Below, piece by piece: positions 50,968 through 56,314 of a stretch of 64,000 bases of DNA. Each line of letters opens with the position of its first letter. Within the stretch, counting starts at the first letter, position 1. The position numbers and the translations under genes were made by a program. Source of the stretch: Nitrososphaerota archaeon (GTDB lineage: Archaea > Thermoproteota > Nitrososphaeria > Nitrososphaerales > JACPRH01); contig JAMCPI010000014.1 in NCBI GenBank assembly GCA_023379805.1, positions 124,001 to 188,000 on the forward strand, in the 5' to 3' direction. The notes beneath the pieces were generated by a model. The model was not told the DNA's origin. It saw nothing but the letters and a program-made list of their open reading frames with translations, and did not search any database.

Positions 50968-51558
50968 TTAGTCTTCTGAGGTCAGCCAGTCAGATAAGGC
51001 TACTTCGTTTGTGTTTCCGAATGGTCTTACTGTGACTATACCGCGTCCTGAGAAGCGTGAGATGATTCTGTGCGTTTTCAACCTGCTAAGATCGGCTTCT
51101 CTTGCGATGTTTTTCTGAAGGTATTTGCCGCTGTGAGAGATTAGAACGTGCAGGACCTTTTGCTCTTCAGGCGTCATTGTGTTCATTAGTGTTGAAAACT
51201 TCTTCCCAGGTAAGGATTTGGGGGATTCTTTTGGTGGCTGGTTGAGCTGGGCTGCGGGTTCACCGACCGGTTGGTGAGACACCTTGATTTCTGGAACTAC
51301 GAAAAAGTACAGTAGCCCACCGATCCCTACTATTAACAGGGCAATGAAGCTTGGGGGCAGTATCCAAAGATAGGACGGAATACTGGTTGGTTGCTGGGCG
51401 CCCATTCCGCCTTGTCCGCCCATCATCTGCCGCATCGCATTGGACATAGAACTGTAATCGGTTTGAGACTGGTAGGTGATGGTTATCACGTAGAGAGATA
51501 GGGTGAAACCTATGAGCGCGGCGACTAGTAGTGCGGCGAAGATGACAATCTTCCTCAA
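50968..51558 (-). CDS. Membrane-anchored winged-helix protein
   Basis: 196 residues: two transmembrane helices (about 4-28 and 65-88) separated by a Met/Gln/Gly-rich loop of about 35 residues (MRQMMGGQGGMGAQQ). A linker follows, then a cytoplasmic winged helix (about 125-190: MTPEEQKVLHVLISHSGKYLQKNIAREADLSRLKTHRIISRF). This membrane-plus-wHTH layout recurs in archaea as putative one-component sensors. The Met-rich loop might bind metal such as copper, but that is speculation. Confidence 0.75.
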   Translation of the reverse strand: MRKIVIFAALLVAALIGFTLSLYVITITYQSQTDYSSMSNAMRQMMGGQGGMGAQQPTSIPSYLWILPPSFIALLIVGIGGLLYFFVVPEIKVSHQPVGEPAAQLNQPPKESPKSLPGKKFSTLMNTMTPEEQKVLHVLISHSGKYLQKNIAREADLSRLKTHRIISRFSGRGIVTVRPFGNTNEVALSDWLTSED

Positions 51559-51643: not shown

Positions 51644-52294
51644 CTATTCCGGCTTGTTTCTCTCTTCGTCACTATATGTTTTAACTAGGTCTATAAGCGG
51701 TTTTCCAAGTAGTTTCTTGAAGGTTTCTGCACTGTAGGTGTTTTCTACCATTTCGCTGGCGAGGTCTTCGACGATGGTTGGACTGAGTTTTTCTAGGAAC
51801 ATTAGGAAGTAGGCGGTGACCTGGTAGTCCGAGGTGGCTTTGCCTTCTTCAAAGTGAGGATAGCTTCCTCGAATAGCGCCTTTGGTTTCTCTTTCATAGC
51901 CCAGTTTGTCTCTGATGTAATCCGCGATTCCTTCTATAAGCCAAGCTGTCGCGCTGTCATATCTTGGCGCATACATTATTGCATGATCGGTTTCGTGAAC
52001 TATTGCGCCGTCATCCGCTTCTCGACTTCCGTAAACCTTGGCGATTCTGTCGAAATGATCTAGGTTTAGGTAGACTGTTTTTCCCGCGGTTGCAGCAGGT
52101 GAGCTGAGGCCGCGCTCCAACATGAATGTTATTTCCGCGTCCGAATCGCGTCCTGTGTGTAGCGACTTGATCTTAGGTATGACTTCGTCAGCTAGTGTGG
52201 CGACGTGTCGAGCGTATTCCTGTTCAGTAGGTGTTTTCGAGTAGTCTACCTTGCAGTATTTTCCTTTCACCACAGGTGGTTGTGTTGGCTTCAC
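51644..52294 (-). CDS. Basic secretory protein-like peptidase
   Basis: 216 residues with the plant-type basic secretory protein fold. The core is DDGAIVHETDHAIMYAPRYDSATAWLIEGIADYIRDKLG, carrying an HExxH (HETDH) and a downstream Glu (EGIADY) as zinc ligands. There is no signal peptide, so the product is probably cytosolic. Its ATG overlaps the TGA of the double-AAA/Lon gene as ATGA, so the two are translationally coupled. A link to protein degradation is inferred from context. Confidence 0.82.
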   Translation of the reverse strand: MKPTQPPVVKGKYCKVDYSKTPTEQEYARHVATLADEVIPKIKSLHTGRDSDAEITFMLERGLSSPAATAGKTVYLNLDHFDRIAKVYGSREADDGAIVHETDHAIMYAPRYDSATAWLIEGIADYIRDKLGYERETKGAIRGSYPHFEEGKATSDYQVTAYFLMFLEKLSPTIVEDLASEMVENTYSAETFKKLLGKPLIDLVKTYSDEERNKPE

Positions 52295-55062
52295 TTAGGC
52301 TTCCCCGATAAGATATGTAGCTTTTTCATTATCGCAGCTCTTGATAATCCGCTGGCTGCGCTTAGATAGTCGAAGAAGTCTTTGCCGCCGATGATTTCTG
52401 TTCCTCGCGCCCCTATTGCATCTACGTATTCTTGATAGTCCTTGACGAGTTTTCCGTAGCCGAGGGTTGGGATGATGACCGCTTTGAACTGTTCATCCGC
52501 AGCTATGTCGATTTTGCCTGATCCTTTCTTCGGATGTATGCCGCCTACGAGACCGGCTAAGCCGCTTTTCAGCTCGATTTTTCCGGTCATGCAGACATTT
52601 GGGCTTAGTGGGATACGCCAGAGGGCTGACGCTATCGATGCGGCTATCGCCATACCTGCGGAGGGTCCCCAGAGCTTGAGTTCTTCTCTAGCCGCGCCTT
52701 CCGCGGGGGTGATGATGTGTACGTCTATGTCGTAACCGTCTATCTTTGGGTAGTATTTTCTCAGGAACTCCACGGCGACCTTTACGCTCTCTTTTACTGA
52801 GTCGCTTACTGTCCCTAGAACCAATAGGCTTTCCGATCTGTTTGATCTCGGGAAAATCTCTGATTCCACTATGATGATTAGGCCGCGCTGCTCATCTCCT
52901 CCTTCTGCGGTGGCTAAGCCGTAGCTCTTTCCGATTTCGGACTCGGAGCTTCGGTAGATTCGCTGCATCTCCTTCAGCTCTTCGAACTCTTCGCTCTTCA
53001 CAGCTAGGTTGAAGACTCGTTCCAGATGCTGCAGCGTCAACGGATATGACATAGGGTTCTCTGCCGACGCCGCTATTCTACTATACACGTCCTCTAGCGT
53101 TACATTCTCCCGTTTAGCTGTGTCTTCGATGTAGAGCAGTTGTTCACCGTAGTTTCCTCTGATGATGCCTATCTTGTCTTTATCTTGATCGCGCAGCGCC
53201 TTCAGCATCTCTCGGCAGGCCACGACCTCTTTGGTCCGTTCAGCCACGGCCGATCTGATTGTGTAAGATACTACTCTCGGGGAGAAGGTTCTTTGCAGAA
53301 ATATTCTCATGATTTTGTCGATTGTAGCGTCTTTCGACAGGAAATTGGCGGTCTTCCTGAGATGAACCTCCAGCACCTCTCTTCGCTCCTTAGCGTTCTT
53401 CGGATAGGTGAACTCCACTGCAAGCAGGCGGTTCAGCAGTGCTTCGTCAATAATGTCTCTTCTGTTCGTGATGCCGATGAACAGGACTCTGCCTCCGCCG
53501 GATTTCAACCCTTCAAGCTCGCTTAGCAGAATTGTGGTGGCCGCCGCGTGAACAGGGTCCCCGGATCTAGATCCCCTCGTTACAGCTACAGCGTCGATTT
53601 CATCCCATATGATTATGCTGGGGGCTTCCTTCCTCGCTTCGCTGAAGATGCTTCGAATGTTTCTTTCAGTTTCACCAACCTCCTTCTGATACACCTCTGA
53701 GCCGCTTACTACTCTGACTTTAGCGCCCTCCTCTCCGGCTATTGCTTTCGCCAAAAGGGTCTTGCCGGAGCCGGGTGGACCATAGAAGAGGAAGCCGATT
53801 GGCGGCTCGTATCCTAGCTGCTTGGCTAGCTCGGGGTCTAATGCGCATTTTATCTCAGTGATTACTCTTCCAAGGACATCGTGGAGACCGCCTACGTCTC
53901 GATATCTTTCAGTGGGTTTGGTGAACTGTCTTGTCTCCTTCACCATTGTGGAGACCTCCTCCTCTGTGTATGCAGCTATGTCTGATGCGATTGAGATGAA
54001 GTCGTCCACTGTAGGCTTCGGAGGTTCTGTGAAGGCTGCGCCGTCTAAGCGGTTTCTGAGAGCTTCTCTGTAGGGGCCCTGCACTTTGTTCGTGGCGAGT
54101 ATGAAGGCCTTGTTGATGTCGGAGGGCGTTGTGTCGCTTTTGCCCACCATCCTCAATGTTTGTGACAGGGCGTGGTAGAGTTTCTCCGGATCCACGTCGA
54201 CTCCGCTTTCTCTGCATCTTCTTCTACAGATTTCGATTAGATGCTCCTCCTTCATGCCGTTCAAATTAATCCGTTCAGCGATTAGCCGGATTGTTTCAGG
54301 CATGCTTGCGAAGTTGTTTGTGGAGAGGATTGCTATTGATCTTATCGGGTTGTCTTTAAGCCGCTCCAGAGATCTTTCTAGGGCCTCGGAGATTCTTCTG
54401 CTTTCTCGTTCTATGTCGCTGCCTATGGATTGAGGTTTCTCAGCGAAGGCCTGTGCATTATCTATGAAGATGACTGAAGGTGTTGCGAAGAGCGCGTTCA
54501 TTTTGCTTTCGAGCTGCTTCTCTGAAACACCCATAAGCCAGGATGAAACGTCTGACGACTTCAGCGTCTCAGGGGTGACCTTGATGCCTTCTTTTGCGCC
54601 GCGCTCCTGCGCTTCTCTCTGAATTGCATGGGCGAGGAACTTCTTTCCCCAGCCGGGATCACTTTCAAGTATGAACACTTTGGGTGGTGGAGTAGCGTAC
54701 ATTTTGGCGAACTGCGGATCTTTGTCCTGTATGCGTAGAATGTGGTAGTCAACCGCGTCGATCAGCAGGGAGACTTCGTTGTCTCGCCCTACAACCTTAT
54801 CTATTGTTACCTGAGACCATCTGGTGTCTTTGCTGAATTTTTTAGCCCACTTCTCCGCCTTCTTCATCCGTTTTTTCTCGGAGATTTTGAAGAAACGGTA
54901 GGTTCGATAATCTCGGCTGGTGAGGAGTAGAGGGATATGGAAGAGGAGCCTAGCTGGTCGATGCCTAGCCCAGTAGAACTGGGAGAACTGTGACTCGTCG
55001 GCATGAGCAGCTTCATGTTTTTGCGTCTTCTTTTTCTTCTCGCTCTTATTCAAATTAGACAC
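52291..55062 (-). CDS. Double-AAA ATPase fused to a Lon protease domain
   Basis: 923 residues. A first AAA-like module (about 90-340) has a weak Walker A (ESDPGWGKKFLAHA) and Walker B VIFIDNAQ. A second (about 400-620) is canonical, of Cdc48/FtsH type: GPPGSGKTLLAKAI, SIIIWDEIDAVA, and a Cdc48-like arginine-rich NRLLAVEF sensor region. The C-terminus (about 725-905) is a Lon/S16 protease domain with GPSAGMAIAAS (catalytic Ser) and GGIHPKKGSGKIDIAA (catalytic Lys). The N-terminus is lysine-rich. The membrane helices that mark archaeal LonB are lacking; its start overlaps the upstream membrane gene's end. Confidence 0.85.
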   Translation of the reverse strand: MSNLNKSEKKKKTQKHEAAHADESQFSQFYWARHRPARLLFHIPLLLTSRDYRTYRFFKISEKKRMKKAEKWAKKFSKDTRWSQVTIDKVVGRDNEVSLLIDAVDYHILRIQDKDPQFAKMYATPPPKVFILESDPGWGKKFLAHAIQREAQERGAKEGIKVTPETLKSSDVSSWLMGVSEKQLESKMNALFATPSVIFIDNAQAFAEKPQSIGSDIERESRRISEALERSLERLKDNPIRSIAILSTNNFASMPETIRLIAERINLNGMKEEHLIEICRRRCRESGVDVDPEKLYHALSQTLRMVGKSDTTPSDINKAFILATNKVQGPYREALRNRLDGAAFTEPPKPTVDDFISIASDIAAYTEEEVSTMVKETRQFTKPTERYRDVGGLHDVLGRVITEIKCALDPELAKQLGYEPPIGFLFYGPPGSGKTLLAKAIAGEEGAKVRVVSGSEVYQKEVGETERNIRSIFSEARKEAPSIIIWDEIDAVAVTRGSRSGDPVHAAATTILLSELEGLKSGGGRVLFIGITNRRDIIDEALLNRLLAVEFTYPKNAKERREVLEVHLRKTANFLSKDATIDKIMRIFLQRTFSPRVVSYTIRSAVAERTKEVVACREMLKALRDQDKDKIGIIRGNYGEQLLYIEDTAKRENVTLEDVYSRIAASAENPMSYPLTLQHLERVFNLAVKSEEFEELKEMQRIYRSSESEIGKSYGLATAEGGDEQRGLIIIVESEIFPRSNRSESLLVLGTVSDSVKESVKVAVEFLRKYYPKIDGYDIDVHIITPAEGAAREELKLWGPSAGMAIAASIASALWRIPLSPNVCMTGKIELKSGLAGLVGGIHPKKGSGKIDIAADEQFKAVIIPTLGYGKLVKDYQEYVDAIGARGTEIIGGKDFFDYLSAASGLSRAAIMKKLHILSGKPK

Positions 55063-56314
55063 CTAGCCTCCTAATTACTTCTCCGAGAACGAACATTACT
55101 AGCAGTATTAGTAGGAAGGGCCACCACTGCTTCATCATTCCAAGGTTCAGTACACCGCGTTTCCATCTGTCGTAGGCGGTTACTCCGACGAAGCCGCCGA
55201 TGTAAAGCGATACTGCTCCGAAGATGTACCAGGCGTTAGGTTCCCCGTAGTTGATCCATCCTTCTTGGATCATGGCTGCAGCGTAGACCGCTAAGTTGGG
55301 TGGGGACCATGCGTTTCTCTGGTCGACTAGCTGGATTTGGATGCCGGATTTAGCTGTCCAGTATTTTACTAGGATGCCGGTGTCTTTGTCGTAGGTGTAT
55401 GCGGTGCTGCAGGAGTTGGTGTTGTCGCAGTCTGCGAAGGCGACGTTTAGGTTCCTGTAGGTTTGCTGCATGATAATGGGTTCTGGGTGTTCGTCATTAG
55501 GCTGCTCCTCGTTGACGACATATTGAACATCAGGGTATAATGGGTCTCCTTTTACTAGACCCGGTGAAGTGAGGAGGTACTTGAAGTATCGATGGCCGTG
55601 GGTTAGCGGCTGATTACTCTCGAAATTCTTCAGTTGAACAGTTCGGGTGCTGTTGCCTTCGTATGTTAGGCTGATGTTCTTGATCTGAGTTCTGTCGAGC
55701 TCCTCGTTTGTGATTGTGTCGAAGTTAAACCACTCCTTCTTGTCCCACACTAGGTAGTTGGGGTTCTTCGGCTCGTCGGCGTTGAATTGGGCGGGGAAGT
55801 ATTTGCTTTTGCCGCTAGTGTCAGTCATCCAGATGGTGTAACGCTCGTTTTTGGTTATGTTGCTGTTGATGGAGATATAGTAGTAGAAGTAGGTGACATC
55901 GCTCAAGTCAAGAGGGCTCTGCGGCATGTAGTCGACTTCAGCGTAGCCGTTCTTAGGCGTCAGAGTGATTTCAAGGTGGTTGTCAACAGCTTTTACCGTA
56001 TTGTCACCGTGCGTTGAGACCCAGTCTTCGGCTCGGTTTGTCGGGACAATCGTGGTTTTGTTGCCGCTGCCGACGTTGATCGTGATGTTTTCCTGTTTGG
56101 TGGAGCCGTCGTAGTAGGTTGACTGGGTTCTGAGGGTTACGAGGTTGCCCTGCACCGCGGTGACGGTGACAGTAGCCTCTTTGATGTCTGAATAGTGGAG
56201 GAACATGTATCTCATCGTCATCCCAGGTTTTACGCCGGGTTGGTAAACTGCAGCTTGGGCGGGGATCAGGATTGATATCGGGATTAGTGATAAGGCGATT
56301 AAGGCCGCGATCAT
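55055..56314 (-). CDS. Signal-peptide, membrane-anchored protein of the Lon operon
   Basis: 419 residues. The N-terminal signal peptide (MIAALIALSLIPISILIPAQ) ends at A-A. A beta-rich extracytoplasmic region of about 320 residues follows (VTAVQGNLVTLRTQSTYYDGS, then LPKNGYAEVDYM-type strands). The C-terminal end has two helices (IFGAVSLYIGGFVGVTAY and WWPFLLILLVMFVLGEVI). It overlaps the Lon-fusion gene by 8 bases. No family was recognised; it resembles archaeal surface proteins. Confidence 0.75.
   Translation of the reverse strand: MIAALIALSLIPISILIPAQAAVYQPGVKPGMTMRYMFLHYSDIKEATVTVTAVQGNLVTLRTQSTYYDGSTKQENITINVGSGNKTTIVPTNRAEDWVSTHGDNTVKAVDNHLEITLTPKNGYAEVDYMPQSPLDLSDVTYFYYYISINSNITKNERYTIWMTDTSGKSKYFPAQFNADEPKNPNYLVWDKKEWFNFDTITNEELDRTQIKNISLTYEGNSTRTVQLKNFESNQPLTHGHRYFKYLLTSPGLVKGDPLYPDVQYVVNEEQPNDEHPEPIIMQQTYRNLNVAFADCDNTNSCSTAYTYDKDTGILVKYWTAKSGIQIQLVDQRNAWSPPNLAVYAAAMIQEGWINYGEPNAWYIFGAVSLYIGGFVGVTAYDRWKRGVLNLGMMKQWWPFLLILLVMFVLGEVIRRLGV

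Follow-up and report, generated by a model that had tools for sequence, protein, structure and literature searches.

Introduction

The Lon proteases described to date belong to subfamilies A, B, C and BA, each of them with one AAA module (PMC9569914). LonA is soluble and joins an N-terminal LON substrate domain to its AAA module, and LonB carries a membrane anchor inside this module and an Asp before the catalytic serine (PMC9569914). A prokaryote-wide survey listed no protein of AAA-AAA-Lon architecture and reported five Crenarchaeota to be without any Lon (PMC2605481). Tandem AAA modules are found in Cdc48, p97 and VAT, which have no protease domain and pass their substrates to a separate proteasome. 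Cooperation of an AAA protease with a separate membrane partner is a feature of FtsH and the mitochondrial m- and i-AAA proteases, which act at the membrane with partners such as HflKC or Mgr1/Mgr3. Zinc peptidases of the basic secretory protein type (PF04450) are secreted proteins in plants with an HExxH zinc-site domain, and the labelling of plant PRp27 by a metalloprotease probe depends on this motif (PMC9322406).

Here we analyse a locus in a 64,000-nucleotide stretch of DNA from a Nitrososphaerota archaeon (the whole stretch is called the window) that encodes a membrane protein, a protein with two AAA modules and a Lon domain, and a zinc peptidase of the basic secretory protein type.

Three overlapping genes in the window

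The three minus-strand genes, MEM, LON and BSP, form one gene cluster in the window with the following features:

55055..56314 (-), MEM, membrane protein, 419 aa (ORF; hydropathy)
55067..55072 (-), AGGAGG, ribosome-binding-site-like, for LON, within the end of MEM (sequence)
55055-55062 (-), MEM/LON overlap, 8 nt, GTGTCTAA (sequence)
52291..55062 (-), LON, AAA-AAA-Lon protein, 923 aa (Pfam AAA twice and Lon_C; phylum-wide family)
54892..54972 (-), LON N-terminal aromatic/hydrophobic motif, residues 31-57 (alignment, 36 members)
54043..54813 (-), D1 AAA module, residues ~84-340, degenerate in the window's family (alignment)
54640-54663 (-), D1 Walker A, SDPGWGKK (alignment)
54457-54462 (-), D1 Walker B, D-N in FIDN (alignment)
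53107..53916 (-), D2 AAA module, residues ~383-652, intact (Pfam; alignment)
53758-53781 (-), D2 Walker A, GPPGSGKT (alignment)
53599-53604 (-), D2 Walker B, D487-E488 (alignment)
52348..52995 (-), Lon protease domain, residues ~690-905 (Pfam Lon_C)
52660-52662 (-), Ser801, predicted catalytic serine (invariant, 36/36)
52513-52515 (-), Lys850, most likely the catalytic lysine (invariant, 36/36; LonB alignment; helix start in the model)
52291-52294 (-), LON/BSP overlap, 4 nt, GTGA, BSP start over LON stop (sequence)
51644..52294 (-), BSP, basic secretory protein-type zinc peptidase, 216 aa (PF04450, E 1.5e-18; LON fusion in three relatives)
51983-51997 (-), BSP zinc motif HETDH, residues 100-104 (sequence)

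A sequence-only reading had placed three genes here that overlap at both junctions, which was borne out: the genes lie at the stated coordinates, and the overlaps measure 8 nt and 4 nt (GTGA). It had also taken the partners of LON for a membrane protein and a BSP-type zinc peptidase, in agreement with MEM, which is hydrophobic at its N-terminus and has two long helices at its C-terminus, and with the Pfam match of BSP (1.5e-18). LON starts with a GTG codon and the AGGAGG lies just ahead of it. On the same strand, 85 bp downstream of BSP, the window also holds a gene (50968-51558, (-)) whose 196-aa product has hydrophobic segments near its N-terminus and a winged-helix-type domain (DUF7343); since it does not neighbour LON in the relatives examined, it is probably outside the system.

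Domain make-up and catalytic residues of LON

The AAA and Lon_C domains were matched by all 36 aligned members of the LON family, and the window protein scored 55.8 bits with Lon_C against a curated cut-off of 21.1 (Pfam), which places it in S16. The proposed make-up of two Cdc48-like AAA modules and a Lon domain thus stood, except that the first module is degenerate in the window protein. D1 Walker motifs are intact in all aligned families but that of the window (f1), where Walker A reads SDPGWGKK, the Walker B glutamate is replaced by N or Q and RRR by RLI. The D2 Walker motifs are intact across the 36-member alignment, so that in the window protein the look of a working ATPase is left to D2 alone.

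Both residues of the S16 Ser-Lys dyad, Ser801 and Lys850, are present and predicted to be catalytic from the 36-member alignment. The serine of the GPS motif is invariant (36/36) and preceded by Pro. The Ser-Lys spacing is longer than standard, so that the lysine was assigned by alignment and from the structural model: most members have Arg in place of Lys846, which is closer to the standard spacing, while phmmer sets Lys850 on the catalytic-lysine position of solved LonB proteins and the LON model has it at the start of a helix. We infer that Lys850 is the catalytic lysine, placed behind a short loop insertion.

The N-terminal region holds a motif with the family pattern WWxxxxxLRxLFxPLLxLxSxxYRxW (36-member alignment), a candidate membrane- or partner-contacting segment. 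Hydropathy analysis detected no transmembrane window in LON (maximum Kyte-Doolittle 1.26) or in BSP (0.86), and therefore no signal peptide in either. The monomer prediction of LON reached a mean pLDDT of 80 and a pTM of 0.48, so that it can be relied on for the folds of single domains but not for the way they pack together. Foldseek searches with this model gave p97, Cdc48, Rix7 and NVL as best matches (about 600 columns, 22-25% identity), and VAT and p97 were the best PDB matches when both sequence and fold are considered.

Comparison with described proteolytic systems

The likeness of LON to archaeal LonB (TIGR00764, S16) is that of an ATP-dependent Lon protease with a probable link to the membrane, and a LonB is the closest solved relative of its Lon domain by sequence (3k1j, 1.2e-11). 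However, LON has two Cdc48-type modules, Pro instead of Asp before the serine (GPS in 36/36), a likely anchor encoded by a separate gene and, as judged from hydropathy and alignment, no transmembrane insert between Walker A and B; it scored 58 bits with TIGR00764, whose cut-off is 516.6. The absence of the LonB membrane helices had been noted from the sequence and holds for the polypeptide, although the machine as a whole is probably tethered to the membrane through its partner. With LonA the protein shares the Lon_C domain and the Pro before the catalytic serine, but it reached 65.7 bits with TIGR00763 against a cut-off of 608, and no Pfam match to the N-terminal LON substrate-binding domain was found in it at E up to 0.01. 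The tandem modules are those of Cdc48, p97 and VAT, from which it differs by its protease domain; TIGR01243 gave 180 bits against 803, and with D1 degenerate LON lacks the two active modules of Cdc48. FtsH and the m- and i-AAA proteases differ from it in having a single AAA module and transmembrane helices of their own, and their protease is a zinc M41 peptidase where LON has a Lon domain. Likewise, BSP shares the HExxH zinc-site domain with the secreted plant proteins, but it has no signal peptide, and the protein to which it is joined, by fusion or coupling, is an AAA protease inside the cell.

The two AAA modules set LON apart from the single-AAA Lon A, B, C and BA, and no NCBIfam model reached its cut-off for the window protein. 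A literature search, in which subscription journals were thinly covered, found no described family with an AAA-AAA-Lon protein and a membrane partner, in line with the earlier claim that no proteolytic system of such make-up has been described. AAA-AAA-Lon is probably a separate Lon subfamily.

Distribution of LON and of other Lon proteases

The family was surveyed within one phylum with a profile of the N-terminal region and D1, which separated true members (E <1e-140) from Cdc48-type proteins (E ~1e-19). LON was detected in 43 of 398 sampled genomes of the phylum, mostly as frames of 900-935 aa, and in 10 of 400 genomes of the order. Within the window's family the locus is present in three of four other genomes (L003, L004 and L005) and absent from the fourth, the same-genus genome G001 (87% complete), which lacks LON, BSP and a neighbouring mannosidase-like gene. 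In relatives the genes are adjacent or fused, which bears out the conserved gene order on which the sequence-only reading depended. One genome (G011) encodes the two-module Lon twice, on separate contigs (L038, L043); downstream of its second copy, and of the LON gene of L040, there is a TatD-like gene and then the same gene order.

LonB was found neither in the window's own genome nor in any other carrier that was searched. Other Lon_C matches in carriers were frames of ~280-500 aa, a secreted AAA-less protein, or frames of ~810-830 aa. The second Lon_C match of the window's own genome was considered as a LonB and rejected, as it is a secreted protein without AAA domain: it lies on contig C6 (L002:25-2034, (-)), has 669 aa and an AAA-less Lon-like domain (GPSGG), and its gene adjoins small secreted proteins with CxxCH haem-type motifs. 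Four carriers (G674, G695, G719 and G052) have, beside the two-module Lon, Lon_C frames of ~813-831 aa, apparently a further Lon type. Six Thermoproteota genomes (G496, G541, G546, G566, G632 and G491) lack the two-module Lon and encode a LonB-like protein of ~735-760 aa together with a Lon of ~805-820 aa. We also considered that LonB and the two-module Lon might exclude each other, as the 17 LonB-like genomes (E <1e-100) and the 43 carriers do not overlap; about two overlaps are expected by chance, so the zero is not significant and the idea was dropped.

The membrane partner

MEM combines an N-terminal hydrophobic signal or anchor with two C-terminal hydrophobic helices (residues ~341-385 and 391-417; hydropathy) and a β-rich ectodomain, as judged from the secondary structure of a low-confidence AlphaFold model too poor for a fold search. 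It had no significant match in Pfam, and its profile had none among solved structures. Orthologues with 59-61% identity lie directly upstream of LON in three relatives (6 bp; L003, L004 and L005). Profile comparison detected no relatives of MEM beyond its own family, so that in the window's lineage gene order in four genomes of one family is what links MEM to LON.

Across families, a membrane-protein gene adjoins LON in every assessable locus. Its product usually has 240-285 aa, beginning with a helix, continuing with an ectodomain and ending with two or three further helices (hydropathy). The gene directly precedes LON, in many cases with an overlap; in family f22 the two genes are neighbours but divergent. 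A strict topology script based on hydropathy found such a partner beside 33 of 39 LON genes, compared with 22 of 396 other genes. Regarding the six loci that it missed, the partner gene of L038 was found by tblastn (~9e-33), those of L095 and L097 encode three helices without ectodomain, L111 is cut by a contig end, and L118 has its partner and a LON broken into two frames. In the last one, L042, a membrane domain and the LON N-terminus share one frame; this domain matched the f34 partner by BLAST (1.6e-13) and class A by hhalign (98%), and the fusion was seen in a single genome whose contig ends inside LON.

A single sequence family for all partners was not supported, as profile comparison detected no homology between the partner classes; it appears that the slot is conserved and its occupant has diverged or been replaced. 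The groups of the LON tree coincide with the partner classes, and each of the 21 genomes, out of 369, that have a class-B partner also carries LON. Extra class-B copies were observed away from LON in one genome (G698:C1:32924-33640) and as a tandem pair beside LON in another (G590:C1:112972-114538).

The zinc peptidase and its junction with LON

BSP scored 67.8 bits with PF04450 (cut-off 23.8) and contains HExxH, and is therefore a predicted peptidase of that family; H-E-x-D-H is invariant in the four BSP sequences, and the BSP profile matched no solved structure. In three different Nitrososphaerota MAGs (L003, L004 and L005) LON and BSP are one frame of 1120 aa. The gene fusions that join LON to BSP or to a membrane domain in relatives indicate that the parts belong together. 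PF04450 was found in six of 101 relatives, four times at the LON locus and twice as short solo proteins elsewhere, and 300 genomes searched across the class gave the same picture. BSP as a general part of the LON system was therefore rejected, since it accompanies LON solely in the window's own family; the conserved core, phylum-wide, is the membrane protein and the two-module Lon.

The split between LON and BSP in the window could also be an assembly or sequencing indel in a protein that is truly fused as in the three relatives, since one base gained or lost at the junction would join the two frames and the linker is about as long as in the fused proteins. We consider this unlikely, as the junction TAAGTGA has, on either side of the start codon, stops for both frames, an arrangement expected of coupled re-initiation, and the contig is 294 kb long in an assembly of 17 contigs. 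The junction sequence favours a coupled re-initiation site over an indel, and the functional link between LON and BSP is the same in either case.

Proposed mechanism and alternative readings

Gene order, domain make-up, conservation of the catalytic residues, both fusions and co-occurrence were observed directly, and we consider it fairly probable that they reflect a membrane-tethered two-ring Lon protease with D2 as its motor and, in the window's family, a degenerate D1 and an attached BSP. LON would be a cytosolic ring, probably a hexamer as in related AAA and Lon proteins. MEM and the N-terminal aromatic motif of LON would hold it at the cytosolic membrane face, and MEM may present substrates through its ectodomain. 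D2 would unfold substrates, probably membrane or membrane-near proteins, and thread them into the Ser-Lys chamber of the Lon domain (S801/K850), where they would be cut. D1 may grip or gate the substrate; in f1 it would not hydrolyse ATP and is likely to be a ring with a structural or gating role. In f1, BSP would sit on the C-terminal side of the protease ring and could trim the released peptides; it is part of the LON chain in three genomes, and in the window it would be a separate subunit coupled in translation. The roles of adaptor and effector peptidase that had been suggested for the partner genes would fit this scheme, as would a role in membrane-protein quality control.

The lack of a transmembrane segment in LON is also compatible with a two-ring protease that is soluble and serves general quality control in the cytosol, with MEM as a separate, co-transcribed envelope sensor or receptor. 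In its favour, the partner classes differ in sequence and the divergent f22 partner gene is on a separate transcript; nevertheless, the partner is adjacent in all assessable loci, even when divergent, its largest class never occurs without LON, and L042 carries a partner-LON fusion, which makes this reading improbable. MEM might otherwise sense an envelope signal and control LON in regulated proteolysis of one or a few targets, with BSP as a second effector, instead of serving membrane quality control in general. The large, variable partner ectodomains would agree with such a switch, and the patchy distribution of the system suggests a non-essential role; however, the genes around LON vary by family with no conserved third gene as target, and the three-helix partners in two families (L095 and L097) have no ectodomain, so that we regard it as quite improbable. 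A function in anti-phage defence was rejected, since PADLOC models matched the generic D2 AAA region alone and none matched MEM or BSP.

The chances are slightly in favour of an undescribed membrane protease subfamily with two Cdc48-type rings, a Lon domain and a dedicated membrane anchor, in lineages where LonB was not found, one family of which would have a two-protease machine, partly in one chain, with a serine-lysine chamber and a zinc peptidase. Components normally found apart are united in this system: an unfoldase of the Cdc48 type with a Lon protease and, in one family, with a zinc peptidase as well. It points to a protein-quality-control machine so far undescribed. For the degradation of membrane proteins in archaea without LonB, the two-module Lon and its membrane partner are a candidate answer.
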